This document shows, piece by piece, positions 10,620 to 23,885 of a DNA stretch of 47,133 nucleotides (positions within the stretch are counted from its first letter, which is position 1; each line of letters begins with the position of its first letter). The translations under genes and the position numbers were made by a program. Below the pieces are notes generated by a model. The model worked only from the letters and a program-made list of their open reading frames with translations. It did no database searches and was not told where the DNA came from. Source of the stretch: Lacticaseibacillus suibinensis (lineage in GTDB: Bacteria > Bacillota > Bacilli > Lactobacillales > Lactobacillaceae); NCBI RefSeq assembly GCF_003946175.1, contig NZ_RHOK01000020.1, positions 1 through 47,133 on the forward strand, read 5' to 3'.

Positions 10620-10646
10620 GTCGATCGCAGCTGCGGTCGGCTTTTT
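10620..10646 (+). terminator. Terminator of the mleS-carrier operon
   Basis: GTCGATCGCA pairs with TGCGGTCGGC (two G-U pairs) across a 2-base gap, then five Ts followed by GCGTG. Confidence 0.8.
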
Positions 10647-10656
10647 GCGTGCAGTG

Positions 10657-10799
10657 AAGTGTGCTGGCCTTCGCAGCCTAGTTGCGCTCAGGCCAGCAAC
10701 GCCTGAGTGAATAGCTACGCCTCGGCCCTCGCCGCGGGCCGCAGCAATGACCAAGGCTAGGCTAATCATCAGGCTAAGTGCGCTGGCCTTCGCAGCCTA
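10657..10799. repeat. Structured repeat element, copy 1
   Basis: A core of about 95 bases flanked by a 24-base direct repeat (10657-10680 and 10776-10799, one mismatch; both hold GCTGGCCTTCGCAGCCTA). The core folds on paper: GTTGC/GCAAC hairpin, an outer stem AGGCCAGC (10690-10697) with GCTGGCCT (10782-10789), and a long hairpin from GCCTGAGTGAATAGCTACGCC to GGCTAGGCTAATCATCAGGC with CGGCCC/GGGCCG near its tip. Copies 2 and 3 lie at 23371-23644. It sits after a terminator and before the YitT-like gene. It encodes no plausible protein. Whether it acts as RNA or DNA is unknown. Confidence 0.75.
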
Positions 10800-10872
10800 A
10801 CCGTGAAAAGGCTTTATCTTGGTTCCCGCCTGGTGTAACCTGTATGCATTAAAGCAAAAAGGACGGTTTAAG

Positions 10873-11469
10873 ATGAAGAGGCAACGCAACGCGCTTTTGC
10901 TGATCGTCGCCGGTGATGCGGTGATGGCCTTCGCGTATGCCAAATGGCTGGTTCCCAATCAAATTATTAATGGTGGGGTCACCAGTTTGGCCCAGATTAT
11001 GCATCAGTTAGTGCCGGCCGTCAGTATTCCGGTGGCCAACAATCTGTGGCTGGCGGGTTTACTGATTTTGGCCCTGGCTTTCTTGGGCCGCGAGGTATTT
11101 TTGAAGTCGCTGTTTTCGAGCATCGTCTACTCACTGTGTTTCACACTGTTTTACGATTGGTCGGTGCAAGTCACGATTCAGCCGCTGGTTGATTTGCTGC
11201 TGGCGTCGGGGTTGATTGCCTTTGGCTATTTTGCCTGTTTGACAGCGAACGCTTCGACCGTGGGGGTGGATGTGTTGGCCCTGATCATGCAGCGCTTTCG
11301 GCCGCAGACCAATCTCAGTCATGCCATTAGGGGCTTCAACATTGTCGTGCTTGCCGCCGGGCTGCTGGTCTTTGGCTGGCAAGCGGTAGCCTTGGGCATT
11401 GTGTTTGCCGTGATCTATACCGCAGAATTGAATTGGATGTTGCAACATTGGGGAAAGGAGGCCGCGTGA
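10873..11469 (+). CDS. YitT/YczE-type membrane protein (DUF161)
   Basis: A 198-residue protein with five or six hydrophobic segments. GDAVMAFAYAKWLVPNQIINGGVTSLAQIMH resembles the start of the DUF161 membrane domain of the YitT family, including the conserved NG-G-T pattern, and TANASTVGVDVLALIMQRF matches its second repeat. Full YitT proteins carry a C-terminal DUF2179 domain of about 90 residues, which is absent, so this is a membrane-only member. Its transport role is unknown. The ATG has AAAAAGGA upstream. The TGA overlaps the ATG of the next gene by one base, which indicates coupling. Confidence 0.75.
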   Translation: MKRQRNALLLIVAGDAVMAFAYAKWLVPNQIINGGVTSLAQIMHQLVPAVSIPVANNLWLAGLLILALAFLGREVFLKSLFSSIVYSLCFTLFYDWSVQVTIQPLVDLLLASGLIAFGYFACLTANASTVGVDVLALIMQRFRPQTNLSHAIRGFNIVVLAAGLLVFGWQAVALGIVFAVIYTAELNWMLQHWGKEAA

Positions 11470-12971
11470 TGGCCTTGAAGCAGGGATTAAATCTGTTTTT
11501 ACTGGCGGACTTGCACCTTGGCAGCGAGCGGCATACGACTGCCGCCTTCCACCATGCGCTGGTGAATATGCGGCATCTGGATCCCGAGGCTGCCGTGGTG
11601 ATTGCCGGTGATATCACCGATACCGGCGAAAAAGATCAGTTTCAGGATTGCTGGAAGAGCCTTGACCGCGTGCCGGCGGAGCAACTGATTGTTGGGTTAG
11701 GCAACCACGATGTCCGCGGGCCTGACCCGCTGACTTGGAACAACGATCAAGCGGCCGATCCCGCGTATTTTCGCCAAAACGTGTTGCCTGAGTACAGTCG
11801 CCACTATTTACGGCGGCTCAAACCCGACCAACCCTGGCAACCTTATTTCAGCCAGCGGCTCGGGGACTACCAGTTTATCGTTTTAAACACGGAAAAAGGC
11901 TTGAAAGACTGCGCCTACCTTTCTGCCGCGCAGGTGCGGTGGCTAGATGCCCAGTTGCAGGCAGGGGAAAACAGCGGCTGCATTAACATTGTGCTGTCAC
12001 ACCAGCCGCTGCGCGACACGCATTGGCGGAGCAATTTTGGCGGGGGCTTTGGCCTTCAAGACGCGGTGGTGAAAGACGTGCTGCGGCGCCACCCCAATAC
12101 CTTCATTGTCAGCGGCCACATTCACAACGGCTTTGGCGTGGCAGAGGTCATCCCGCGGTCATACGGCACCTGCATTGACCTGCCAGCCTTTGCCTTAAGT
12201 GAAAATGGCCGCACCGGATCGGGTCTGGGTTATTACTGCACCTGGACCCATGACGCCATGAAGTTTGAAGCCTGGGATTTTGCCATCAATCGGCCTTTGG
12301 CGGCTTACGACTTTACCCTGAAAACCACCACGCTGGCGGCGGCGATGCCAGATCTCAGCGTCTTACATCCGGAGTCCGCGCAGCATGCCTTGCAACTGCT
12401 GTACCGCAGCTATGATACCCGGTTGTTCGATGATCCGCGCACCGATCAACATACGGCGCCGCCGGTCCAACCTTTATTTGGCCCGGAAGTGCAGGCTCAG
12501 ATTCAGGAGCTGTTGGCCAGTGCCTATCCGCGGCCGGCGCAACGGCCGCCGATTGACTTGCGCCCTTATCATGGCTATTTTGCCCAGCGCGATGAGTATG
12601 TGGCGGCCATTGAACGGTTCACGGAGAATCTCGCTGGCAATATGCGCAGTGGTCAGATTGAAGCGCAGTTAACGCGGCAATTCGTCGCCGCCCGGCTCAA
12701 TGTGCTGCGGCCGCAACTGGCGCGCTTTGATGATGCGACGCTCAAAGCCGCCATGGAGGAAGCTCAGCATGTGCTGGTGGGGGTCTTTCCGCGCGTCGAC
12801 TTTAGCCGGTTGCAAGCCTTGATCGATGAGCATGCGGCCGCGACCAGCGCCGAATTGCAGCTAGCTTTAAGCGCCGGTCGTTATTTAATTAAAGACCGCG
12901 CTGCGACTCAGCCAGCTATAGACGGCATGATTGCTGAAATAAAACGGTTATTGCAGGAAAAGACAAATTAA
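11469..12971 (+). CDS. Calcineurin-like metallophosphoesterase
   Basis: A 500-residue protein. The N-terminal 260 residues form a metallophosphoesterase domain with all five motifs of the fold: ADLH (Asp14, His16), GD (Asp48), GNHD (Asn79, His80), SHQP (His178) and GHIH (His217, His219). These bind two metal ions for phosphoester hydrolysis. The remaining 240 residues form a C-terminal part that I do not recognise. There is no signal peptide. The substrate is unknown; family members include cyclic nucleotide phosphodiesterases and phospholipid or cell-wall phosphatases. The start has AAAGGAGG seven bases upstream and overlaps the stop of the YitT-like gene, which suggests a joint function. 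Confidence 0.9.
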   Translation: MALKQGLNLFLLADLHLGSERHTTAAFHHALVNMRHLDPEAAVVIAGDITDTGEKDQFQDCWKSLDRVPAEQLIVGLGNHDVRGPDPLTWNNDQAADPAYFRQNVLPEYSRHYLRRLKPDQPWQPYFSQRLGDYQFIVLNTEKGLKDCAYLSAAQVRWLDAQLQAGENSGCINIVLSHQPLRDTHWRSNFGGGFGLQDAVVKDVLRRHPNTFIVSGHIHNGFGVAEVIPRSYGTCIDLPAFALSENGRTGSGLGYYCTWTHDAMKFEAWDFAINRPLAAYDFTLKTTTLAAAMPDLSVLHPESAQHALQLLYRSYDTRLFDDPRTDQHTAPPVQPLFGPEVQAQIQELLASAYPRPAQRPPIDLRPYHGYFAQRDEYVAAIERFTENLAGNMRSGQIEAQLTRQFVAARLNVLRPQLARFDDATLKAAMEEAQHVLVGVFPRVDFSRLQALIDEHAAATSAELQLALSAGRYLIKDRAATQPAIDGMIAEIKRLLQEKTN

Positions 12972-12978
12972 TTTTCGT

Positions 12979-13012
12979 CCCAGGTTAGTTATTTCTAACC
13001 TGGGCTTTTTTT
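12979..13012 (+). terminator. Terminator of the yitT-like/phosphoesterase operon
   Basis: CCCAGGTTAG and CTAACCTGGG form a perfect 10-bp stem with a 6-base loop, followed by seven Ts. Confidence 0.95.
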
Positions 13013-13600
13013 GTTTCCGAAAATGATAGTTACGACGTTCTAACTAGATAGTAATCAATCAAACATACAATATACTACCTGCGATAATGATAGGTTAAAA
13101 TTCAGCCAAAACCAAAATAACGAACAAAAAATCGTCTTTTCACAGTGTCCTTACTGTCAAAAAATAACAATATTTTACCTGATGAGATTTAGGGTACCAC
13201 TGGCGCCATATCGTGATATTTTGACTCGAATACTCGACTTATGGGTTCATTGTTACAACGATTCCAAACGCGGAATAGGCGGGATAAACATTGATTTAAG
13301 TGTATTTTGCGGGCTTTCGCTGGTTAAAATTTAATTTTTGAGAATTGAATTGAAAACCGGTCATTACAAACCGTACCACTGTGCGGTTTGTGACTGATTG
13401 ACTCCAAATAATCGGGTGACAGTGAAACGGAGATTCCAAAAATACCAAAAATTTTACGTCTTTTCTGCGCGGGTTATCATAGACAATAATTTATATCGGT
13501 ATTACAATTTAGGCGATATCCGTAGAGAAAAACTCATAATAAGCGATAAAGGGGAATTTGGCGGATATAAATTTGCATTATCCTATGGGAGGAATTTGAT
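13013..13600. other. AT-rich intergenic stretch upstream of the surface protein
   Basis: About 590 bases with visibly lower GC than both flanks and no convincing gene. A frame of 68 codons near its end has no ribosome site. The perfect inverted pair ACAAACCG/CGGTTTGT at about 13365-13390 could form a hairpin in a long 5' leader. A TATCAT -10-like box near 13476-13481 is possible. The base composition suggests foreign origin or a conserved long untranslated leader; neither is proved. Confidence 0.5.
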
Positions 13601-15127
13601 ATGAAGAATCGTCAAGGGGCAAAGAAACTCTATAAGGCTCACAAGACCTGGATTGCAGCTGGTCTTGCGGCAGCAACGCTGTTCAGTGTTCAAGCCTTGG
13701 GTACGCAAACCGTAGCTGCTGATACTGATACTGCACCGATCACGGAAACGGATGCTAAAACCGAGTTGCTGAATGTTATCGCCAAAAATAAGACTGATTT
13801 GCAAAGCATTGGCAACGTACAGGATAAGGTTACCGGCAGATCTTTTTTTGGTGATCTTGATGCACTGAGCGCGGAGGTCCAAGCCGGCAAGTACACGACC
13901 AAAGAGCAGCTCTATGATGCCATGAAGCCGATGATGCAGGGTTATAAAGAATACCTCAAAGATTCTTTAAAGAGCAAAGTCGCTGCTGTTGGCAATGATA
14001 CTTATGGCGAAACTGGCCGTACTTTCTATGGGGAAATTGATGCTCTGATCAATAGCTCCACTGTGTCCGCTGATGACACTGGTGTGAAAGCTGACGTTGA
14101 TACTGATGCCTTACAAGCCGTGCTTGCTGCCGCTGAAGCTGCCAATACCAAGACCATCAACATTGACTTGGTCGATACAACCTCAAACGTTGTTGTTAAG
14201 CAATTAAGCTATGAGACCACTAAGAACGGCGGAATTGACCTGGCTCAGGTCGAAAATGATTTACCATCTGGCTATCGAATTGATAAAACCAAGGGCCACC
14301 AAGATCCAAAGACTGGTAAATATTATGTTGGTGTTTACAATGTTGCGGATGTAGAAGCTAAGGCTAAAGATGCCGCCAACCAGATTGCCGATGCCGCCAA
14401 GGCCGCTACAAAGACAATCAACGTTGATTTCATTGACACCACGAGTAACGAAGTCGTCCAGCAGTCCAGCTTTATTGTTGGTAAGAATTCTGGGGTTAGC
14501 CTAGAAAAGGCTGCCACTGCGCTTACTGATACGACTTATAAGATTGATGCCACTCAAGAGGGCCGAGACCCTAAGACTGGCAAGTATTACGTCGGAGTAT
14601 ACAATACCAAGGATCCTCAAGCTGTCGAAACAGCCGCCAAGAATGCCGTTGATGCAATTGCTCGGGGCATTAAAGATGCGACAAAGACAATCAAGATTGA
14701 CTACATCGACATCAATACGAACGAGGTCGTAAAGCAGACTTCCTTTGTTGTGCCAAAGGGTGGTCATCTGAGTATCGAAGAAGGTACTTCCAAAGCACCT
14801 GAGGGCTATGTCATCGATTGGGCGCAGATACAATATCGTAAGGACACTGGTAAGTACTACATCGGCGTCTTCAAGCCGACAAGCATCGCTGATACGCCTA
14901 ACATGTCTACCTTAGCTTCAGAAAAGGCTCGCCGGGATGCAGAAAGTCAGAAACCAACGCCTAAGCAGGTTTCAACTAAGGCTGCCGCTACGACGTCAGC
15001 TAAGAAAGCAACCAAGACCTTGCCTAAGACAGGCGACAGGACCAACACGGTTGCTTCCTCAATCGGGGTAGTTGCGGTGATTGGTGCCCTGTTTGGCCTG
15101 GCCGGCACCACCAAGAAGCGTGCCTAA
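13601..15127 (+). CDS. LPXTG cell-wall-anchored surface protein with three repeats
   Basis: A 508-residue secreted protein. The N-terminus KKLYKAHKTW is a KxYKxGKxW-type signal with His in place of Gly, followed by a hydrophobic run and a likely cut after VAA (residue 40). Two related helical segments follow (GRSFFGDLDALSAEV, 79-93, and GRTFYGEIDALINSS, 139-153, 60 residues apart). Then come three repeats of about 65 residues (183-247, 270-335, 361-425), each starting TKTI(N/K)(I/V)D and ending DPKTGKYYVGVYN or a variant, joined by Ala/Lys-rich helical linkers. The C-terminus has sortase motif LPKTG (474-478), a hydrophobic helix and KKRA. It should be attached to peptidoglycan by sortase A. 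The repeats resemble adhesin beta-modules; the ligand is unknown. GGGAGG precedes the ATG. Confidence 0.9.
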   Translation: MKNRQGAKKLYKAHKTWIAAGLAAATLFSVQALGTQTVAADTDTAPITETDAKTELLNVIAKNKTDLQSIGNVQDKVTGRSFFGDLDALSAEVQAGKYTTKEQLYDAMKPMMQGYKEYLKDSLKSKVAAVGNDTYGETGRTFYGEIDALINSSTVSADDTGVKADVDTDALQAVLAAAEAANTKTINIDLVDTTSNVVVKQLSYETTKNGGIDLAQVENDLPSGYRIDKTKGHQDPKTGKYYVGVYNVADVEAKAKDAANQIADAAKAATKTINVDFIDTTSNEVVQQSSFIVGKNSGVSLEKAATALTDTTYKIDATQEGRDPKTGKYYVGVYNTKDPQAVETAAKNAVDAIARGIKDATKTIKIDYIDINTNEVVKQTSFVVPKGGHLSIEEGTSKAPEGYVIDWAQIQYRKDTGKYYIGVFKPTSIADTPNMSTLASEKARRDAESQKPTPKQVSTKAAATTSAKKATKTLPKTGDRTNTVASSIGVVAVIGALFGLAGTTKKRA

Positions 15128-15145
15128 TTCAAGTTTCACTCGAAA

Positions 15146-15169
15146 GTCTCTCTGCGGAGAGGCTTTTTT
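15146..15169 (+). terminator. Terminator of the surface protein gene
   Basis: GTCTCTC pairs with GAGAGGC (one G-U) around TGCG, followed by six Ts and GCGTGG. Confidence 0.85.
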
Positions 15170-15178
15170 GCGTGGAAT

Positions 15179-15207
15179 CAAAGAGCCTGCCGCGAGGCGA
15201 CAGGCTC
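15179..15207 (-). terminator. Terminator of the thiol peroxidase gene
   Basis: GAGCCTG (15183-15189) and CAGGCTC (15201-15207) form a perfect stem; on the minus strand it is followed by TTTGATT, a weak T-run. Confidence 0.6.
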
Positions 15208-15218
15208 AAAGGTGGGCG

Positions 15219-15716
15219 TTACTTGGCGTGAGTTTCGAGGTAGGCCAAGGCGCTATCATAATCTGGTTCTTCAGTTTGTTCTTCAATCAGTTCGCGGTAA
15301 ACAATCTTGCCTTCAGGATTGGCAATCCAGACGCTGCGAGCATTGGTGTTGTTATCGGCAACATACAGGCCCATCGCTTGGCCAAAGCTGCCGGCTTCGT
15401 CAGAGAGCAGTTGCATCTGCTTCACGCCTTCCGCCGCACACCAGTTTTGCTGCTGAGCAATGGTGTTGGTGGAAATGGTGAAGAAGTTGATATCAGCAAA
15501 GCCATCGGCGGCTTGATTGAAGTTCTTGGTGGAGACGCTGCAAACGCGGGTATCGATATCTGGCACCACGCTGATCAGGCTGTAGTGGCCGGCCAGGTCG
15601 TGGTTAGAAACGGTGTGGCCATCGGCGGCTTTGACGGTAAAAGCCGGCAAGTCATGGCCAATCATTGGGGGTTCGCCGTTTGTTTGCTGCGGCGCACCAT
15701 GACGGGTGATTTTCAA
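15219..15716 (-). CDS. tpx: Thiol peroxidase (atypical 2-Cys peroxiredoxin)
   Basis: A 165-residue cytoplasmic peroxidase that reduces hydroperoxides with electrons from thioredoxin. The peroxidatic Cys59 lies in SVVPDIDTRVCS, the usual Tpx motif, and the resolving Cys93 in QNWCAAEG. The N-terminus (MKITRHGAPQQ) is that of Tpx when translation starts at the TTG preceded by AGGAGGG; a longer frame upstream is not supported by a ribosome site. It stands alone and convergent with the surface protein gene. Confidence 0.92.
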   Translation of the reverse strand: MKITRHGAPQQTNGEPPMIGHDLPAFTVKAADGHTVSNHDLAGHYSLISVVPDIDTRVCSVSTKNFNQAADGFADINFFTISTNTIAQQQNWCAAEGVKQMQLLSDEAGSFGQAMGLYVADNNTNARSVWIANPEGKIVYRELIEEQTEEPDYDSALAYLETHAK

Positions 15717-15861
15717 AACAATCCCTCCTATTGAACGAATCGGCAGTCCAACGACTGCGCTCATCTTCAGTTTAGCATAGAAAAGCCTGGGTGTGTTTCT
15801 TTGCGGCTAGCGCCTACGGGTTGCTACAATTGAAGTGAGCCTTTGCAAAGGAGGTGCAGCC

Positions 15862-16353
15862 ATGGCTAAGGTGGTCGTTGTCTATTTATCGCAGTCGGGG
15901 TTTACTCAGAAATACGCGATGTGGATCGCGCGTGAGCTGCACTGCGAGGTGGTGGATAGTCAGTTCGTCACCACCCCAGATTTGGTGCAAGCGCGCCTGG
16001 TGGTGTACGGCGCGCATGCCAAAAATTCTGGTGTGATGGGTTTTCGCCAGTTCTATGCTCGGTTTCAGCTGGCGTTGCCGCAGCAACTGATTGTGTTTGG
16101 CACTGGGATTCAACCGGCGGCGCAACTGGATCTGCCAGGGATTCGGGCGAAAACTTTTCGCAAATGTACCCGCGAGCCGCAGCTGTTTTACTTCAATGGT
16201 CAGGTCGATGAATCGGCGCTGCCGCTGCGGTTGAAGCTGCCGTACCATTACCATCAGCGCAAGCTCACCGAAGCGCCGCAGCAATGTGGGGTGGGCACGA
16301 TTTTGCCACTGCTGGAAGCGGTGGACCGGCTGGATGAAAAAGGGCTGCTGTAA
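15862..16353 (+). CDS. Flavodoxin-domain protein
   Basis: A 163-residue protein with a flavodoxin-like fold: VVVVYLSQSGFTQKYAMWIA (residues 4-23) is the first beta strand and the FMN phosphate loop, as in the HemG-type flavodoxin_5 group (PF12724). Later strands are LVVYGAHAKNSGVMGFRQFY and LIVFGTGIQP. The C-terminal third is basic. Members of this group include flavodoxins and protoporphyrinogen oxidase; lactobacilli usually lack haem synthesis, so a redox role of unknown partner is more likely. AAAGGAGGTG precedes the ATG. Its stop codon directly abuts that of the convergent pepF gene, with no bases between. Confidence 0.75.
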   Translation: MAKVVVVYLSQSGFTQKYAMWIARELHCEVVDSQFVTTPDLVQARLVVYGAHAKNSGVMGFRQFYARFQLALPQQLIVFGTGIQPAAQLDLPGIRAKTFRKCTREPQLFYFNGQVDESALPLRLKLPYHYHQRKLTEAPQQCGVGTILPLLEAVDRLDEKGLL

Positions 16354-18162
16354 TCAGCCGTTGATTTGGGTGGTTAAAGCTTCGATTTGGCGTTCCGTGT
16401 CATCTAGGAAGTTGATCATTTGCTTCAGTGGCGCATCGGTACTGATGTCCACACCGGCGACTTGGGCGGCTTCAAGCGGGGCCTTGGTGTCACCAAGGGC
16501 TAAGAAGCGCTGCCAATCAGCAATCGCCGCGTCACCATCTTTGGCGAGCCGCAGGTACGCCGCAGTGGAGATGACCATTGAGGCCGAGTAGGTGTAGGAA
16601 TACAAGCCCATATAATAATGACTCTGGCGCATCCACGTCAGTTCCGGCATGCCATCGTCCAAATCAACGGCATTGCCCCAGAACTGGTGCAGGACGCCTT
16701 TTTTAATCGCGTTCAACTTAGCAGCGTCGAAGGACTCGCCGGCATCGATCAAGGTGTACACTTCGCGCTGGAAGGCTGCTTCCAGCAAGTGGGTGACACA
16801 GTTGTGGAAGTAGGTATCAGAAAGCAGCCGGCTCAAGGCGTAGCGCTGCAGCCGCGGTTCCTGATGCTCACTGAGCAGACTGTGCGTCAGTAGCAGTTCG
16901 TGGAACGTGCTGGGGGCTTCACTGATGTAGGTCGATTGCCCACTGGCCAAAATGCTGTGCTGCTCGCCAGCCAAAGTCATTTGTCCCGTGTGGCCGAGTT
17001 CGTGCACCAAGGTGTATAGTGCCGGCAGCGTATCAGCCCAGCTCATTTCGACATACGGATGCACGCCGTAAACGCTGGCCGCAAACGCGCCGGATTCCTT
17101 ACCCTGATTAGCCGCAAAATCGACCCAGCGCTCTGGGAAGGCTTGCATGATCCGGTCTTGGTAAGCCTGGCCCATGGGCGCAATGGCCTTGGCAATGGCG
17201 GCCGGCGCTTCCGCTAACGAGATGGTAGGCGTGTAGGTCGGATCCAAGTCGATTTGTAAATCGGTGTAGCCAATGTGATCGAGGCCCCAGAGCTGTTTGA
17301 TGAGCGTGACATAGCGCCGCATGATTGGTGCCAGGCCGTTCATCAGGCCGTCGATTTGGCGATCGAACATTTCACGGGTGACTTCCTGAGGCGCTAGTAA
17401 GTAATCGAAAACGGAGTCAAACCCGCGCATGGTCGCCAGCGTCTTTTCCTTGGCCACTTGCGCATAGTAGCCAGCCGCCATTGTGTTTTGGTAGCGCGCA
17501 AGGGTGGCGCAGAACTGATGATACGCGGCGCGGCGCACTTTGGTGTTGGGATGTTTTTGGTATTCCTCTTCATATAGAACAAAGGAAAGGGGATACGTTT
17601 CGCCATCCACCTCGAAACTGCCAAAGTCCATGTCACCAAAAATGGCTTGGCTGCGCATGGCATCCGGGGCGTTCAAAGCAGGATCGAGTTCAGCCAGCAC
17701 TTGTTCTGCGGCTAACGGCAAGGCGTGATGCTTTTCGAGCAAAATATGCCGGATGAAAGCGGCATGGTCTTCAGTGTCTGCCGCGGCTTTGAGCACTGTT
17801 TCCGGCTGGCCTTGCAGCTCGGTGGTGAAGAATTGCAGCTGGGCATCGTTTTGCGCCAGCAGGCTCTCCACGCGATGCAGGCGTGCATTGGCCTTGGGGT
17901 CGGTGGTGTCGGCAGATTGCGGCAGGAACGCGTAAGCGCTAATGTGATCGGCCAGCACTTGTAAGGTGGCGTAGTCGTCGAGCGCGTCGTCAATGACCGG
18001 CGCCTCGGTCAACCGACCCGAGTAGATGCGGATGAAGTCGGTGGTGAGGGCTTGCAGTTGCTTGATGGCACTTTCAAAGTCGGTTTCCGTGGCAAAAATG
18101 GCAGTGAGGTCCCAAGTTAGCGCGGGATCAACGGCGCTGCGCGGTGGTAAAGCGGTAGGCAT
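16354..18162 (-). CDS. pepF: Oligoendopeptidase F
   Basis: A 602-residue cytoplasmic zinc endopeptidase of family M3B that cuts peptides of about 7-17 residues, part of the proteolytic system used on milk or plant peptides. The zinc motif HELGH (His387, Glu388, His391) is followed by the third ligand region SEAPSTFHELLL. The N-terminal RSAVDPALTWDLTAIFATETDFE is the family's usual opening, and the length of about 600 residues is normal. AAGGAG lies seven bases before the ATG. It is monocistronic. Confidence 0.94.
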   Translation of the reverse strand: MPTALPPRSAVDPALTWDLTAIFATETDFESAIKQLQALTTDFIRIYSGRLTEAPVIDDALDDYATLQVLADHISAYAFLPQSADTTDPKANARLHRVESLLAQNDAQLQFFTTELQGQPETVLKAAADTEDHAAFIRHILLEKHHALPLAAEQVLAELDPALNAPDAMRSQAIFGDMDFGSFEVDGETYPLSFVLYEEEYQKHPNTKVRRAAYHQFCATLARYQNTMAAGYYAQVAKEKTLATMRGFDSVFDYLLAPQEVTREMFDRQIDGLMNGLAPIMRRYVTLIKQLWGLDHIGYTDLQIDLDPTYTPTISLAEAPAAIAKAIAPMGQAYQDRIMQAFPERWVDFAANQGKESGAFAASVYGVHPYVEMSWADTLPALYTLVHELGHTGQMTLAGEQHSILASGQSTYISEAPSTFHELLLTHSLLSEHQEPRLQRYALSRLLSDTYFHNCVTHLLEAAFQREVYTLIDAGESFDAAKLNAIKKGVLHQFWGNAVDLDDGMPELTWMRQSHYYMGLYSYTYSASMVISTAAYLRLAKDGDAAIADWQRFLALGDTKAPLEAAQVAGVDISTDAPLKQMINFLDDTERQIEALTTQING

Positions 18163-18286
18163 ACAATCACTCCTTCAATTCAAGTTTGCCTCAGTATAGC
18201 ATGCAAGCTAATGGGATTATCAGCTGTGCGTTTTTTTCCGTGGTCATTTTTGGTAAACTAAATGAAAACAAATAAGGAGGCCGCGC

Positions 18287-18631
18287 ATGATTAACAATAA
18301 TCAACTGGTGACACGGTACTACAATCTCAAGGCCAAAAATAATGAGTTGTTCAAGGTCACAGAAGGTTATGTCGACGAACAGGTCAAGGCGTTGTACGAG
18401 GAGCTTGACCAACATTTTGTTGATCGGCTGGAAATCGATGTGCAGGTGGCCATGGACAAGGGCCAAAAAGCCGCGCCTGAGCTCGATCCGGCGGAATTAG
18501 AAGTGGCCGTGACCAACAACATCATGAAGCATCTCGATGATTTGGGGCTTTCGGTGTTGCCACCGCGCTTAAGCGAGCCGAACACCATCGTTGCCCATTT
18601 GAACTTCTTCAACCACAGTCGGTACTACTAA
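18287..18631 (+). CDS. Conserved-looking small protein, unknown
   Basis: A 114-residue, acidic, soluble protein rich in predicted helix (NNQLVTRYYNLKAKNNELFK, then DEQVKALYEELDQHFVDRLEIDV). There is no signal peptide, Cys or metal motif. A strong AAGGAGG lies before the ATG and a strong terminator follows, so it is a single-gene unit. I recognise no family and give no function. Confidence 0.75.
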   Translation: MINNNQLVTRYYNLKAKNNELFKVTEGYVDEQVKALYEELDQHFVDRLEIDVQVAMDKGQKAAPELDPAELEVAVTNNIMKHLDDLGLSVLPPRLSEPNTIVAHLNFFNHSRYY

Positions 18632-18680
18632 AAACATCCCACCTGACTTCACTCTTTAAAGTCAACGGTGGGATGTTTTT
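18632..18680 (+). terminator. Terminator of the 114-residue protein gene
   Basis: ACATCCCACC pairs with GGTGGGATGT, with an inner TGACTT/AAGTCA stem, followed by five Ts and GCG. Confidence 0.9.
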
Positions 18681-18688
18681 GCGCTGCC

Positions 18689-18917
18689 GCGGGTGAGGTC
18701 GTGGTGGCTCCGGGGCGCGGCGGTCTGGCTGCGGGGGACGGCTGGAGCCAAAAGGCGGTCTCCAGCCTCAACTGCGAGCCAGCATCGCGCATACGCGCTC
18801 AACGCTGTCTCGCAGTTGCCCCCAACCAGCACAGGAGCAGCCTGCAAAGTGCGCAGTCTACTCGTGTGCTGGTTGTTTCGCGGCTGGACCGCCACGCCCC
18901 TCCGCCACCCCGCCCGC
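18689..18917. repeat. Large multi-branched palindromic element
   Basis: About 230 GC-rich bases with a long imperfect outer stem (left arm 18689-18725, right arm 18887-18917; GGCGGTC/GACCGCC and GGGGCG/CGCCCC are its perfect parts). Inside are three perfect hairpins: GGCTGGAG/CTCCAGCC (18740-18767), AACTGCGAG/CTCGCAGTT (18770-18817, itself with AGC/GCT and GCGC/GCGC inside), and CAACCAGCACA/TGTGCTGGTTG (18823-18875). The shape is a giant cloverleaf. It starts just after a terminator and codes for no plausible protein. It could be a structured RNA, a mobile hairpin element or a DNA cruciform. The rest of this 400-base gap holds only a weak short frame (18937-19080). Confidence 0.7.
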
Positions 18918-18936
18918 ACTCGCTGGATAACAGAAG

Positions 18937-19080
18937 ATGATTCGCGACGTCTGTCGGTTATTAGAAAATGATGTTTGGCTGACCGGCGGCAAGTGGGCAG
19001 CGGAAAGTGACTGGCTGTTTTTCACCAACGACTCAAGTTACTGCTGGGTGCTCAGCCATTCACCCAGGTGCTTGAAGTAA
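18937..19080 (+). CDS. Short reading frame, possible gene fragment
   Basis: A 47-codon frame, MIRDVCRLLENDVWLTGGKW then AAESDWLFFTNDSSYCWVLS, with protein-like composition up to about codon 35. It has no ribosome site and runs into the end of the convergent peptidase gene, where its last codons are antisense coding. It may be the 5' piece of a gene whose remainder has been lost. Weak evidence. Confidence 0.25.
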   Translation: MIRDVCRLLENDVWLTGGKWAAESDWLFFTNDSSYCWVLSHSPRCLK

Positions 19081-19934
19081 TCGTCGGGGTTATCGAGCAT
19101 TTGGCCGTGGCCGGCGTCTGGGGTGATGTGCAAGGTGGCGTTGGGGATGGTGGCGGCCATTCGCCGCGCTGCGGTTAGCGGCATGGTTTCGTGGCCCCCA
19201 AAGGTCAGGTAGGTGGGCACGGTGATGTTGTGAATGTCGGCGCGCCGGTCCCAATCTTTCAAGGCGCCAACCATGACGAATTCGTTGTCGCCTTGGAAGT
19301 AGTTATAAACTGGCGTGCCCATGACCGAGATCAGGTGCCGCGGCTGGGGGTCGCTTTGGTGATGCAGGTAATGTTCGCCCAACTCAGCCACTAGGGCTTG
19401 ATACTTGGCATCCGTGAAGGCGTGGTCGGCTTCGATTTGCTTCATGTACGCGACCTGATCGGGCGTGAACATGCTTTCACGAATCGCATTGATGTTGACG
19501 ATGTATTCATCCAAATTGTCAATCATCGAGCTGAGAATCAGGCCTCTGAGGTGCTCACCGTAGCGCAAAGCGTACTCGATGGCGAGCACGCCGCCCCAGC
19601 TTTGGCCTAACAAGAAAAAGTGGTCGAGGCCGAGTTTTTGCCTTACTTCTTCGACTTCATTGACGTAGTAGTCAATAGTCAAAAATTGCTCGCGAATGGC
19701 GGGGTCGGTCCAGTCTGGTTGATCCGAGTACCAGGAGCCGAGTTGGTCATAGCGGGTGGCCGTGACGCCATAAGGGGCGAGGCGTTCACCGAAGTTTTCA
19801 AAAACCTCATTGGTGCCGCCAGGCCCGCCATGCAGCGTCATCAGCTGAATGGGGCCGTTGCCGCGAGTTTGCGTCCAAAGATGGTAGCCATTGGCCAAGG
19901 TGACAAAATGGGTACCGTTTTTTGCTGTTTTCAT
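19038..19934 (-). CDS. Proline iminopeptidase-type alpha/beta hydrolase
   Basis: A 298-residue cytoplasmic serine peptidase of family S33 that removes N-terminal proline from peptides. LHGGPGG (34-40) forms the oxyanion hole, GQSWGG carries the nucleophile Ser112, and DAGHGQ carries His276. At the usual place of the catalytic acid the sequence reads FGGHETMP, so the acid would be Glu249 rather than Asp, as far as I can align by eye. A helical cap spans about residues 140-215. Lactobacilli use PepI/PepR enzymes of this type in proline-rich peptide use; PepI and PepR cannot be told apart here. Confidence 0.88.
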   Translation of the reverse strand: MKTAKNGTHFVTLANGYHLWTQTRGNGPIQLMTLHGGPGGTNEVFENFGERLAPYGVTATRYDQLGSWYSDQPDWTDPAIREQFLTIDYYVNEVEEVRQKLGLDHFFLLGQSWGGVLAIEYALRYGEHLRGLILSSMIDNLDEYIVNINAIRESMFTPDQVAYMKQIEADHAFTDAKYQALVAELGEHYLHHQSDPQPRHLISVMGTPVYNYFQGDNEFVMVGALKDWDRRADIHNITVPTYLTFGGHETMPLTAARRMAATIPNATLHITPDAGHGQMLDNPDDYFKHLGEWLSTQQ

Positions 19935-20060
19935 TGTCTCACCTCATTGTGGTATGCCTTATTCTACCGCGCAGGCACCTAAAAATCTCTTAATTCAAGG
20001 CGTTCGCCGGCATTTTCCCGCGGCTATCGGCTAGAATGAGAATAGAAGGAAGGTGGCCAG

Positions 20061-22406
20061 ATGGCAGAGCAGTCCACAAATGCAAGTGGGTTAACCAATG
20101 AAGAAGTGGCAAAGCGCGAGCAGGCGGGCCAAGTCAACACCCAACCAGCAGCGCTGACGCCTTCAATCGGCCAGATTGTCAGCGGCAATACGTTCACTTT
20201 GTTCAATTTCGTGAACTTGGCTTTGGGTGTCCTGATTGCCACCACTGGTAGTTACAAAAATCTGCTGTTTTTGTTCGTGGCGATTATCAACACCGCGATT
20301 GGGACGTTCCAGGAAATTCGAGCCAAGATTCAAATCGACAAAATGCGAATTTTAGCCGAAACCCCAGCCCATGTCCGGCGAGGCGGCACGTTGCACACCA
20401 TTGCGCAAACCGCTATTGTGTTGGGCGACCTGCTGGTGCTCAAACGCGGCGATCAAATTCCGGTCGACGGGGTGGTCCGCGAAACTAGCGGCGTGGAAGT
20501 GGATGAAAGTCCGCTGACTGGGGAAGCCAATCCCATCAGTAAACAGGTTGATGATCCGCTTTACTCCGGCAGCTTTCTGGTCGCGGGGCAAGTGGTGATG
20601 CAGGCCACGGCGGTGGGGGGAACCACTTTTGCCGCCAAGCTGGCCAATGAAGCCAAGGCGGGGCCGCAAACGCAAAGCCAGTTGCTGGCCACCATCAACC
20701 GCATTATTCAGGTGCTGACCTACGTGCTGATTCCGCTGGGGGCCGCGTTATTTATCGTGTCCATGGTGCGGCGTGGTAATTACAACCGGGCGATTTTGTC
20801 GACCAGTGCTGCCATGATTGGGATGATTCCCGAAGGCTTGGTGCTGTTGACCAACGTCGCGCTGGCGGTATCGTCGCGCAACTTGGCGAAGCGGCGCGTG
20901 CTGGTGCGAGCGCTGCCGGCGATTGAGGCCTTGGCGCGGGTTGATGTGATGTGTTTGGACAAAACCGGCACCATTACCTCCGGCAAACTGCGCATCAGCG
21001 GCGTGTATCCGGCGGCGACGAGCAGTGAAGACGCGGTAATCAAGGCGGCCACCGCGGTGGTGTACGCCTTAAATGATGATAACGAAACCGCACTGGCCAT
21101 CAAACAGGCCTGGCCGCAGCAACCGAGCGTCACCGTGGTGAATACCGTGCCGTTTTCGTCGGCGCGAAAATGGTCTGGCGCCAGCTTCAGCGATGGTACC
21201 AGCGTTGTGATTGGGGCACCGGAGTTTGTCTTTCCTGCCGGCCTGCCGCAAACCGTTAGTCAAACCATTGCTAAGGCGACTCGCGCGGGGTACCGCGTGC
21301 TCGCCGTGGCTGAGACCCAGCAAGGCTTGGCGCTGCCACTGGCCGGTATGCAGCTGCTGGGCTATCTCACCATCAGCGATGAAGTCCGGCCTGCCGCCGC
21401 TGAAACGTTGGCCTTTTTCGAAACGCAGGATGTCACGCTGAAAATTATTTCCGGTGACAATCCGCTCACCGTGGCCAACGTGGCCCAGCAAGCTGGCCTG
21501 ACTCACGCGGATCACTGGGTGGACATGCAAACTGTGCCGAACGAGGCGGATTTCAACCAGCTGGTGCAGGATTATACCGTGTTTGGCCGCGTGACGCCGA
21601 CGCAAAAAAAGCACCTGATTCAGGCGCTTCAACAAAACGGTCATACCGTGGCGATGACGGGTGATGGGGTCAACGATGTGTTGGCGCTAAGACAGTCGGA
21701 TTGTGCGATTGCCATGGCTTCTGGAGCAGAGGCGGCGAAGTCGATTGCCGACTTTACCTTGCTGGATTCCAACTTCGACGCGATGACCGGCGTCTTAAAT
21801 GAAGGCCGCCGGGTCATCAACAACATTGAGCGGGTGGCGTCGATGTATCTGGTCAAAACTATTTTCTCAGTGATTTTAACCGCGATTTTTGTCTTTCTGC
21901 CACTGGATTATCCGATTACCCCGATTAACCTGACCCCGGTGTCTGCGATTGCCGTGGCCATTCCGTCGTTCTTCTTGACCCTGGAACCGAACTTCCAGCG
22001 CGTTACCGGCCAATTTTTCCAAAAAGTGATGACCATCGCCGCGCCGGCGGCCTTAGCCGTTGTCGGTTACACTTTGCTGCTGACGCGTTTTGAGTACCTG
22101 TGGCACTGGGACTTTGCGTTCACGTCGACGCTGGTGGTGTTCATGATTGGCGTCATCGAGCTGCATGTGGTGGGCCTAGTGTCACGGCCATTCAATCGGT
22201 TCAAAACGCTGATGCTGGCACTTTTGCTAGTGGCTTTTTTCGGCGTATTCTTTGTGGTGAATGGCGTGTTCTCACTGGCCAACTTATGGCGGTGGGATCG
22301 GGCGTTGGTTTATGTGCCGATGCTACTGTCCAGTCTGCCGGTGTACCTCCTGCTCCAAGAGGTGCTGGGCAAGCGGGTGTTATCCAGGATTAACTGGCGT
22401 TTCTGA
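20061..22406 (+). CDS. Cation-transporting P-type ATPase (P2-like, CtpE-type)
   Basis: A 781-residue membrane ATPase. The TGE actuator motif lies near Thr153, the phosphorylated Asp300 is in CLDKTGTITS, and the hinge is AMTGDGVNDVLALRQSDCAIAM near 530-550. GMIPEGLVLLTNVALA before the phosphorylation site replaces the CPx motif of heavy-metal pumps, so it is not a copper or zinc pump. It lacks the long N- and C-terminal parts of SERCA-type pumps. From memory this group includes mycobacterial CtpE and pneumococcal Exp7, linked to calcium uptake; the ion here is not proved. The ATG has AAGGAAGG upstream and a TAGAAT -10 near 20031. Its last 27 bases overlap the end of the convergent stress protein gene. 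Confidence 0.88.
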   Translation: MAEQSTNASGLTNEEVAKREQAGQVNTQPAALTPSIGQIVSGNTFTLFNFVNLALGVLIATTGSYKNLLFLFVAIINTAIGTFQEIRAKIQIDKMRILAETPAHVRRGGTLHTIAQTAIVLGDLLVLKRGDQIPVDGVVRETSGVEVDESPLTGEANPISKQVDDPLYSGSFLVAGQVVMQATAVGGTTFAAKLANEAKAGPQTQSQLLATINRIIQVLTYVLIPLGAALFIVSMVRRGNYNRAILSTSAAMIGMIPEGLVLLTNVALAVSSRNLAKRRVLVRALPAIEALARVDVMCLDKTGTITSGKLRISGVYPAATSSEDAVIKAATAVVYALNDDNETALAIKQAWPQQPSVTVVNTVPFSSARKWSGASFSDGTSVVIGAPEFVFPAGLPQTVSQTIAKATRAGYRVLAVAETQQGLALPLAGMQLLGYLTISDEVRPAAAETLAFFETQDVTLKIISGDNPLTVANVAQQAGLTHADHWVDMQTVPNEADFNQLVQDYTVFGRVTPTQKKHLIQALQQNGHTVAMTGDGVNDVLALRQSDCAIAMASGAEAAKSIADFTLLDSNFDAMTGVLNEGRRVINNIERVASMYLVKTIFSVILTAIFVFLPLDYPITPINLTPVSAIAVAIPSFFLTLEPNFQRVTGQFFQKVMTIAAPAALAVVGYTLLLTRFEYLWHWDFAFTSTLVVFMIGVIELHVVGLVSRPFNRFKTLMLALLLVAFFGVFFVVNGVFSLANLWRWDRALVYVPMLLSSLPVYLLLQEVLGKRVLSRINWRF

Positions 22407-22841
22407 CGCGGTGACGATGAGCACGTCACAAGGCGCATTTTCCGTGACAAAACTGGCCACTGAGCCCATGAACATGCGGGCGGCGGCATGTTTGGTCGCC
22501 CGGCCCAGAATGATCAGGCTGGAATGGTATTCTTGCGGGAAGTCAAGCGCGATCACCGTCCGCGGATTACCGAACCGCAAATGATACGCCACAGTCAGAC
22601 CTTGCGCCTGCAGCTTTTTGGCTTGCTCATCCAGCTCAAGCTCGGCGCGCGTTTCGGCGTTGTATAAAATCGTCCCATCGACGTCAGGTTGTTGATAAAG
22701 ACCCACATGGTAAGAGCGGGTATCGATGACGTAGAGCAGATCGATCACCACATCTTCTCGCGTTGCGATGGCTTGCGCGGTCGCGACTGCTTGGCCTGCT
22801 GCTGGGGAGCCATCAAAGGCCACCAAAATGCGTTCTGTCAT
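22380..22841 (-). CDS. Universal stress protein (UspA family)
   Basis: A 153-residue UspA-fold protein. It starts RILVAFDGSPAAGQAV, with the conserved Asp of the ATP-binding type, and ends ILGRATKHAAARMFMGSVASFVTENAPCDVLIV, close to the GxxGx(9)GS(V) nucleotide loop, though the second Gly of that loop seems to be missing. Family members help survival under stress, often as ATP-binding dimers. The ATG was chosen because AAAGGA is ten bases upstream; the GTG nine bases earlier is too close to it. It overlaps the convergent P-type ATPase gene by 27 bases. Confidence 0.88.
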   Translation of the reverse strand: MTERILVAFDGSPAAGQAVATAQAIATREDVVIDLLYVIDTRSYHVGLYQQPDVDGTILYNAETRAELELDEQAKKLQAQGLTVAYHLRFGNPRTVIALDFPQEYHSSLIILGRATKHAAARMFMGSVASFVTENAPCDVLIVTASETPVNPG

Positions 22842-22983
22842 GTTCGCCACATCCTTTCTGTCTTTGTTGTACCATATCTGGCCTCACCAAGGGGATGAAA
22901 AGGCCTTGCTGCCTCGACAAAGATAGCGTTTTCCCTCGCAATTTGGTGGCGAATTGGTATGATAGAGACAGGAGGCGATGGCC

Positions 22984-23286
22984 ATGTTCAAAGAAACCAA
23001 AGCAATTGCAAAGCAGTTCGTCGAAACGGCACAAGAGCCCATTCACACGTTTGATAATATGCTGAAGGATGACCCAGAACTCGTGATTCCCTTGGCCATT
23101 ATTCACACCGTGCCAGTGGCGCTGATGATTATCGGCACCACCCAGATTATTATCGGACACCAAAAACTGCGGGCGGAAAAAGAACGCACCAAGCAAATCA
23201 GACTCAAGGCAATGCTGCACCACGGCTGCCGGCACCACCATGGCATCAAGCCGCACATGCACAAACTGGCCAAGCCTGAAGTTTAA
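22984..23286 (+). CDS. Small membrane protein with His-rich tail
   Basis: A 100-residue protein with one hydrophobic segment (about 35-58, LVIPLAIIHTVPVALMIIGT) between a charged N-terminus and a basic C-terminus rich in His (MLHHGCRHHHGIKPHMH). The tail could bind metal; that is only from composition. The second of two nearby ATGs is preferred because GGAGG lies eight bases before it. TATGAT with an upstream TG (extended -10) near 22957 is a likely promoter. It is divergent from the stress protein gene and followed by a strong terminator. No family recognised. Confidence 0.65.
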   Translation: MFKETKAIAKQFVETAQEPIHTFDNMLKDDPELVIPLAIIHTVPVALMIIGTTQIIIGHQKLRAEKERTKQIRLKAMLHHGCRHHHGIKPHMHKLAKPEV

Positions 23287-23306
23287 TGGCTATTTTGGCA
23301 TCATGG

Positions 23307-23348
23307 ACACCCCTAGGTAACTTGAATTCGAAGTTGCCTAGGGGTGTT
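23307..23348 (+). terminator. Terminator of the His-tail protein gene
   Basis: ACACCCCTAGG and CCTAGGGGTGT form a perfect 11-bp stem with an inner AACTT/AAGTT stem; the T-run is short (GTGTTTGCG). Confidence 0.8.
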
Positions 23349-23370
23349 TGCGCGTCTGATCGTCAGGCTG

Positions 23371-23510
23371 AAAGCGGCCTCACGCCACAGCCTTCATAGT
23401 TGCGCTACGGTTGGCAACGCTCGAGCAGCTAGCTACGGCAGAAGCCTCGAAGCCAGGAACCAGCTTCAATGCTTCTGCCTAGGCTAACTGTCGAGCTAAG
23501 CGCGCCAACC
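23371..23510. repeat. Structured repeat element, copy 2
   Basis: First of two tandem copies of the element seen at 10657-10799. It shares TAGTTGCGCT, GCAACGC, AGCTACG and AGGCTA with the others. Its outer stem is GGTTGGC (23409-23415) with GCCAACC (23504-23510), and its long hairpin runs from TAGCTACGGCAGAAGC to GCTTCTGCCTAGGCTA (GGCAGAAGC/GCTTCTGCC perfect) with GAAGC/GCTTC at the tip. The stem sequences differ from copy 1, the pairing does not. Confidence 0.7.
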
Positions 23511-23644
23511 TTCGCAGCCTAGTTGCGTTACGTGAGGCCAACGCCAGAGTGAATAGCTACGCCAGCTGGCCCGCCACCCAAAAGCGGTGGCAAACCAGCT
23601 GGCTAGGCTATTCATCCGGCTAAGTGCGGCCTCACTCCACAGCC
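23500..23644. repeat. Structured repeat element, copy 3
   Basis: Second tandem copy. It shares CCTTCGCAGCCTAGTTGCG and GAGTGAATAGCTACGCC exactly with copy 1. The outer stem is GTGAGGCC (23532-23539) with GGCCTCAC (23628-23635). The long hairpin runs GAATAGCTACGCCAGCTGG to CCAGCTGGCTAGGCTATTC with GCCACC/GGTGGC at its tip. The pair of copies is bounded by a 19-base direct repeat, GCGGCCTCAC(G/T)CCACAGCC, at 23374-23392 and 23626-23644. Confidence 0.75.
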
Positions 23645-23662
23645 TTTTTTGTAGTATGTTGA

Positions 23663-23812
23663 GGGCAACCGGAGCGGGGAGGGGCTCAGTGGTGAAATTG
23701 TTCTTAGCCAGCGGTTTTGGCTGGCTTAGAACAAGCCGCGACTTTGAGACTCGCAAAGCGAGGCTCAAAGCGCTGGCCACCACGTTCCAGCCCCTCCCCG
23801 CGGAGGCTGCCC
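23663..23812. repeat. Second multi-branched palindromic element
   Basis: An outer stem of 24 positions with 20 pairs (23663-23686 and 23789-23812; GCGGGGAGGGGCT pairs perfectly with its partner). Inside are GTGGTG/CACCAC (23689-23694 and 23778-23783), a hairpin GTTCTTAGCCAG/CTGGCTTAGAAC (23700-23732) and a hairpin CTTTGAG/CTCAAAG with inner CTCGC/GCGAG (23742-23770). The architecture is like that at 18689-18917, with different sequence. With the three entries above it fills most of the 600-base gap before the GNAT gene. Confidence 0.7.
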
Positions 23813-23885
23813 GGACTGGCCGGAGATTGCTAAATAACCGTTTTTGCGCGACAATAAGAGCACTATCTTTTAGTGGAGGCACAGC

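Follow-up and report, generated by a model that had tools for sequence, protein, structure and literature searches.

A dispersed hairpin repeat family of Lacticaseibacillus with a strand-fixed G-U signature

The 47,133-nt contig NZ_RHOK01000020.1 from Lacticaseibacillus suibinensis (assembly GCF_003946175.1; this whole stretch is called the window below) carries, at two intergenic sites, three copies of a hairpin repeat whose outer stem changes its letters from copy to copy and stays paired. What kind of element is this, which of its strands does the folding, and is each copy kept by selection? A first-pass annotation had read the pattern as compensatory change that implies selection on structure, and had offered either a small structured RNA or a mobile hairpin element as its source. 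Our analysis placed all three copies in one family of hairpins ~120 bases long, roughly a hundred copies of which are scattered through this Lacticaseibacillus genome. Two features mark the family: a G-U signature that stays with one strand of the unit in copies oriented at random, and a reach of at least 11 genera. With many intergenic copies that share one fold, it is a structured dispersed repeat in the general sense.

Copies and distribution of the family

Used as a blast probe, one copy gave 66 matches in its own genome. We found 112 distinct matches, 85 of them full length, in 694,182 of the 2,560,295 bases of the genome, and at least 11 further match places outside those 694,182 bases; 20 of the stretches read had been chosen away from known clusters, and their 11 matches underestimate the density. 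Seventy-two full-length units were found around the matches, of which 71 were aligned (alignment A2, one near-copy being left out) and used to build the covariance model R1. Units stand singly or form head-to-tail arrays with at most five members, at times with an inverted neighbour.

The check proposed in the first-pass annotation was run in part: a covariance model of the family turned up numerous additional copies with covarying pairs among relatives, and Rfam gave no relevant match. R1 matched 20 of 30 genomes of the genus (own genome included; four of the 20 by a single match), one of seven other genomes of the family, and none of 23 genomes from the rest of the order outside the family. 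Of 301 Lactobacillaceae genomes, 47 gave a match at E 1e-4, and these fell in 11 of the 40 genera; this draw used stricter filters than the genus scan and missed one genome, G027, that the genus scan had matched once. Matches per genome were counted up to 11 in the draw and up to 59 in the genus scan. A pattern scan of named genomes gave matches in Lacticaseibacillus camelliae, L. suilingensis and L. jixianensis. Rfam release 15 returned no match in the window at the gathering threshold, and over the loci of 10 relatives its sole match was a signal recognition particle RNA next to the repeats; at E <= 10 three families appeared, named as microRNA and long RNAs, all far under threshold. There was no match in a phage collection queried with one unit or in a plasmid collection queried with one array. 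Full-text literature searches found no description of the family by title or abstract, which does not establish its absence from print.

Unit boundaries in the window were set by R1, with unit lengths of 119-125 nt. Below, "as drawn" refers to the plus strand used in the first-pass annotation, and the minus strand given for units is the better supported structured strand.

10680..10798, minus: unit 1, single copy, 119 nt (R1, 115 bits; fold -60.5 as plus, -71.7 as minus)
23398..23520, minus: unit 2, 123 nt, leading member of a head-to-tail pair (R1, 127 bits; fold -61.5 as plus, -72.7 as minus)
23521..23645, minus: unit 3, second of the pair, 125 nt (R1, 122 bits; fold -68.4 as plus, -81.8 as minus)
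10690..10697 with 10782-10789: arms of outer stem P1, unit 1 (AGGCCAGC at 10690, GCTGGCCT at 10782); P1 columns covary in the 71-unit alignment
23409..23415 with 23504-23510: arms of P1, unit 2 (GGTTGGC at 23409, GCCAACC at 23504)
23532..23539 with 23628-23635: arms of P1, unit 3 (GTGAGGCC at 23532, GGCCTCAC at 23628)
10659..10680, minus: leftover 3' end (as drawn) of another unit, a direct repeat of 10778-10799 by sequence comparison
23371..23397, minus: 3' end (as drawn) left over from a further unit, ahead of the pair, with GGCCTCAC at 23376
10620..10646, plus: terminator-like hairpin and T run ahead of unit 1, by eye
23307..23348, plus: terminator-like long hairpin ahead of units 2-3, by eye and as a self-complementary match

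All six outer-stem strings lie where the first-pass annotation had placed them. Its exact blocks also exist; each was said to recur in three copies and occurs at two places by string comparison in the window, CCTTCGCAGCCTAGTTGCG at the start of units 1 and 3 (10668 and 23509) and GAGTGAATAGCTACGCC in their interior (10705 and 23547). The copies had been drawn too long, the true unit being shorter, as the left ends at 10657 and 23371 take in another unit's leftover 3' end; leftovers like 23371..23397 also precede other arrays. The direct repeats thought to bound the copies are real for unit 1 (10659-10680 against 10778-10799, one mismatch) and consist of this leftover unit end. Terminator-like hairpins were seen by eye ahead of both sites, in line with the claim. 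The comparison of varying hairpin tips had to be given up, because the strings compared come from different helices: unit 2 contributes its third stem (GGCAGAAGC/GCTTCTGCC) and unit 3 its fourth (GCCACC/GGTGGC), while CGGCCC/GGGCCG belongs to an alternative plus-strand fold of unit 1.

The genes neighbouring the units in the window encode a Mem_trans transporter, a YitT protein and a GNAT family acetyltransferase. A second, different hairpin repeat of ~160 bp adjoins units 2-3 (window 23663-23822). It has 27 matches in the window's genome, six copies lying within ~150 bases of first-family copies by coordinates, and also occurs in G005, G010, G022 and G028, which gave no first-family match, and in G027, which gave one.

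Fold and structured strand

Each element is predicted to form one long hairpin of ~120 nt, in which an outer helix P0/P1 is followed by stacked helices P2, P3 and P4. Conserved internal loops lie between the helices, and the tip is short. As drawn, the helices occupy A2 columns 2-7/118-123 (P0), 11-19/108-116 (P1), 23-37/87-100 (P2), 41-49/75-83 (P3) and 53-58/66-71 (P4), and Watson-Crick pairs predominate in the stems. Both sides had changed in 34 of the 44 base pairs among the 71 aligned units. Paired cells reached 91.0%, against 71.2% in shuffles and 24-41% when slid; cells changed on both sides numbered 610 against 173 in shuffles; and the covariation score was 0.495, against 0.139 in shuffles and 0.04-0.10 when slid. 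None of the six P0 pairs covaried in this genome, and pair 11-116 formed in just 13 of the 71 units. The unit ends differ among species (AGTTGCG/CGCAGC, GTCGAGC/GCTC, AAACGYG/CRCTCT) and can still pair by eye, while the internal loop TAC/TAG between P2 and P3 was retained in most units and gone from some distant ones. A GTTG/CAAC hairpin at the 5' end, considered as a switch, is present in most units and hardly varies, which gave no support either way.

The pairs that deviate from Watson-Crick bear on which strand folds. An A.C cell as drawn is a G-U pair on the complement, and a G.T cell as drawn is A.C on the complement. P1-P4 as drawn held 85 A.C cells and 30 G.T cells; the bias ran the same way in 39 units against 7 and in 22 columns against 5 (p 0.0015). 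Among 44 units taken from other species it recurred, by 30 units to 5, and in these pyrimidine-pyrimidine mismatches filled 86 cells and purine-purine mismatches 17; these 44 of 79 rows were left after removal of eight reverse readings of the palindrome, the G015 rows, rows more than 90% identical and the P0 pairs. In an alignment-free comparison, the complement had more G-U pairs in 165 of 196 units and fewer in 7, G-U making up ~10% of its pairs; in this count many units gain identical G-U pairs from their conserved loops, an effect that the P1-P4 cell count avoids.

Folding energies pointed to the same strand. The complement was the more stable one in 180 of the 196 units, by a mean of 7.8 kcal/mol, and in 192 of 196 with DNA parameters; the consensus energy was -67.7 for the complement and -51.6 as drawn. 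Compared with shuffled sequences, units 1, 2 and 3 gave z of -4.2, -6.0 and -7.7 as drawn and -6.8, -7.0 and -9.2 on the complement, with none of 200 shuffles as good as the real unit in any of the six tests. Unit 1 has a misfolded tip as drawn, and P3 and P4 are whole on the complement through G-U pairs. The conserved loops read GGAG/GGAG, AUU/GAG and CUA/GUA on the complement, which in our reading may allow tandem G.A, U-A and U.G contacts. The complement is thus the better supported structured strand, and the first-pass annotation had drawn its opposite. A control on tRNAs read 3 of 3 correctly, a weak check with only three tRNAs, and the strand test fits RNA and single-stranded DNA alike.

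Genomic setting and change between species

The copies are mostly intergenic: 4 of 52 rows (one locus twice) overlapped a picked open reading frame, the gene maps for this and for the neighbour and orientation counts being crude scripted picks. Among 42 single-orientation clusters of the window's own genome (G000), both neighbouring genes ran along the complement in 16, both against it in 15, and otherwise in 11; the corresponding counts were 14, 21 and 7 in G015, a close sister with 91-92% DNA identity around site 1 (unit 1; site 2 holds units 2-3). Since copies lie in random orientation, local replication or transcription can hardly account for a strand bias that goes with the unit. Around 40 arrays, runs facing the array as behind a terminator comprised 9 T runs on the left and 6 A runs on the right, and those facing away 1 and 2; this agrees with the placing after terminators in the first-pass annotation, and would be expected of intergenic sites as well. 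Mean best promoter scores were 7.9-8.7 in all four combinations of flank and strand, with no clear bias. T runs of at least 5 within 50 bases past the end were seen in 0 of 42 cases on the complement and 2 of 42 on the drawn strand in G000, and in 2 of 41 and 10 of 41 in G015.

Some individual loci deserve mention. Three units lie between histidine kinase-like and response regulator-like genes (walK/walR-like by eye) at L185:15718-18803 (G000 C12), where the sister species has two. Inverted unit pairs at L009:2216-2505, L032:2349-2625 and L027:2472-2763 have their 5' ends (as drawn) facing each other across a gap of ~30-45 bases, and are potentially larger cruciforms. Broken units at L019 ~2570-2602 and L182 ~17204-17242 (G000) are split by similar short sequences of the type CGTAGCGCAxAGCGCGTAC...GCTGACATGCG, possibly a further small insert.

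We compared the sister species site by site. The number of full-length units differed at 16 of 27 matched sites; of five more clusters, two aligned straight through, one had one unit for two, and two had only a 3' leftover. Changes within the same unit were scored in 21 unit pairs of at least 80% identity, covering 853 base pairs. Paired sites diverged by 7.0% and unpaired sites by 5.5% (46/844). Eighty single changes led to or from a non-Watson-Crick pair: 35 of the G-U type on the complement, 19 of the A.C type (p 0.04 for these two) and 26 others. A further 7 changes were between mismatches, 12 were double Watson-Crick changes, 6 of these from two unit pairs below 85% identity that are possibly not orthologous, and 4 were other doubles. 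These figures thus give hardly any indication of protection of individual copies, and a weak one of upkeep. Because paired and unpaired sites diverged similarly, and 80 single changes stood against 12 double ones, constraint seems to act mainly on source copies. The compensatory change noted in the first-pass annotation therefore holds insofar as pairing is kept while letters change; the selection on each copy that it was taken to imply is poorly supported.

The two window sites differ in what relatives retain. At site 1, G015 keeps one leftover end without a unit, and the following gene is not kept in the other species examined. At site 2, parts of both neighbouring genes persist in five relatives (G001, G008, G014, G017 and G024), where a terminator-like hairpin lies close to the start of the next gene, and a hairpin with a T run stands in relatives without units at the place of 23307..23348; R1 found no unit at the five loci (L122, L120, L116, L114 and L115, respectively). 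Both the units and the second repeat are present there in the window and in G015, whereas the corresponding interval of G006 and of G020 contains two units in opposite orientation. Separate arrivals would best explain this pattern, with loss and inversion as a less likely alternative.

Possible origins

We consider, with a probability of roughly 0.58, that the repeats are small non-coding, non-autonomous mobile elements that pass through a folded single-stranded stage and at present change through recombination. Copies would have spread through a single-stranded intermediate that had to fold, RNA or less likely single-stranded DNA, and that an enzyme would have mobilised in trans. After landing, a copy would drift roughly neutrally, and arrays would lengthen and shrink through recombination between their repeated ends. 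High copy number, intergenic placing, random orientation, arrays, patchiness and arrivals in different lineages at one place make us lean to the mobile hairpin of the two options in the first-pass annotation, with the addition of a structured single-stranded stage. A narrower version, which we consider improbable, is a bacterial counterpart of the short interspersed nuclear element: a short structured RNA copied into DNA by machinery supplied in trans, giving randomly oriented copies that grow into arrays. The complement strand of the copies would then still show the RNA's G-U pairs and purine-rich internal loops.

Several observations weigh against the mobile-element reading. The units share descent, so that the strand counts are not independent, and 140 of the 196 units come from two sister species. 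None of the 32 clusters (27 + 5) compared with the sister species looked like a clean empty site, so that no exact insertion was read and most places seem inherited by both species; the empty relatives at site 2 are too diverged for element ends or a target duplication to be read. The 12 double Watson-Crick changes exceed the chance estimate (~4 doubles of all types together, roughly one third being compensatory), and some upkeep of pairing in place is possible. No recurrent mobile gene lies beside the copies; the larger groups of neighbours resembled, by eye, ABC transporter ATPases and glycosidases, or were one locus in both species. Y1_Tnp (PF01797) occurred in 13 of 30 genus genomes, with no match in the repeat-rich G014, G006, G011 and G001 and with only partial or stop-bearing matches in G000 and G015. 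RVT_1 occurred in 11 of the 30 and in none of the repeat-rich G015, G006, G011 and G001, which is still compatible with a past or distant enzyme. The Y1 transposase and the reverse transcriptase were both rejected as movers, as their distributions do not track the repeats. One Y1 (IS200-type) transposase match, L044 (G000 C54:50550-50831), carries two in-frame TGA stops.

Next in our ranking comes a structured RNA kept by the host, in which the copies are functional parts of transcripts (hairpins of untranslated regions, RNase III sites or protein-binding RNAs) under host selection. The recurrence of the G-U-tolerant strand and of conserved internal loops across genera agrees with this, as do the T and A runs that face arrays as behind a terminator (9 + 6 against 1 + 2). 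However, orientation relative to genes is random, promoter bias is not clear and T runs on the complement strand are few, five relatives lack a unit at site 2 and two carry it in opposite orientation, and in-place divergence is alike at paired and unpaired sites. We regard it as unlikely.

Ranked third, and less probable still, is upkeep at the DNA level only, in which the replicating strand switches template from one hairpin arm to the other, so that one arm is rewritten from its partner and no selection acts on a folded strand. Template switching in DNA can yield paired changes, according to PMC8794818, and such a published mechanism would account for the excess of double Watson-Crick changes in place and for the predominance of Watson-Crick pairs in the stems as drawn. 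It gives no reason, however, for unpaired loops conserved across species, or for a strand bias that stays with the unit in both of the orientations found.

A classical miniature inverted-repeat transposable element, that is, a deletion derivative of an insertion sequence moved by a DDE transposase acting on terminal inverted repeats, is quite improbable. Its size, intergenic placing and arrival at one place in different lineages would fit, and the ends GTTGCG/CGCAGC are inverted, but their similarity is short (six bases, imperfect) and part of one hairpin, the ends vary between species (GTCGAGC, AAACGYG) yet remain able to pair, no target duplication could be read in the 32 clusters or at site 2, and such an element would not be expected to show the strand bias. 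An origin as REP/BIME-type repeats mobilised by a Y1 (RAYT) transposase, already disfavoured, has very little in its favour: units here are intergenic, palindromic and clustered, and some begin with GTAG or CGTC, but they measure 119-125 nt and not 20-40, have no fixed start tag (the base ahead of AGTTGC varies, and other genera begin with AAACGYG), and are not tracked by Y1_Tnp across genomes.

Among small dispersed repeats known from other bacteria, BOX carries repeated inner modules, REP elements move as a folded single strand and ERIC has a length of ~126 bp; ERIC is not known to form head-to-tail arrays, and Efa-1 also goes by the name EFAR. As described in PMC2267715, Efa-1 of Enterococcus faecalis resembles the present family as an intergenic Firmicute repeat of 163 bp with dozens of copies and a predicted structure; it differs in forming two adjacent stem-loops, and R1 matched none of the 23 genomes of the order outside the family. 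BOX and RUP of Streptococcus pneumoniae are likewise high-copy, intergenic, structured and non-autonomous, with other lengths and another architecture, whereas here the whole hairpin is repeated; both are listed in tables of PMC2267715. ERIC of enterobacteria is alike in forming one long, dispersed, intergenic stem-loop (PMC2267715) of similar length, and unlike in hosts and sequence. REP, BIME and REPIN elements with RAYT share with our family a palindromic, often clustered and intergenic nature; they are 20-40 bp long with a GTAG or CGTC tag, and GTAG families are linked to transposases (PMC3733652, in which "Lactobacill" and "firmicutes" are absent). The repeats form a new family within a known kind, the small, structured and dispersed repeats to which BOX, ERIC and Efa-1 belong (PMC2267715).

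With this finding, a bacterial family of food and probiotic importance gains a large family of structured repeats that Rfam 15 lacks. It also cautions that compensatory change among copies within one genome is alone no proof of each copy's function. As array length differs between sister species, arrays may be of use for typing and may preserve a natural record of hairpin recombination. The strand-fixed G-U signature in copies of random orientation makes it testable whether the folded form by which small bacterial repeats spread is RNA or a single strand of DNA.

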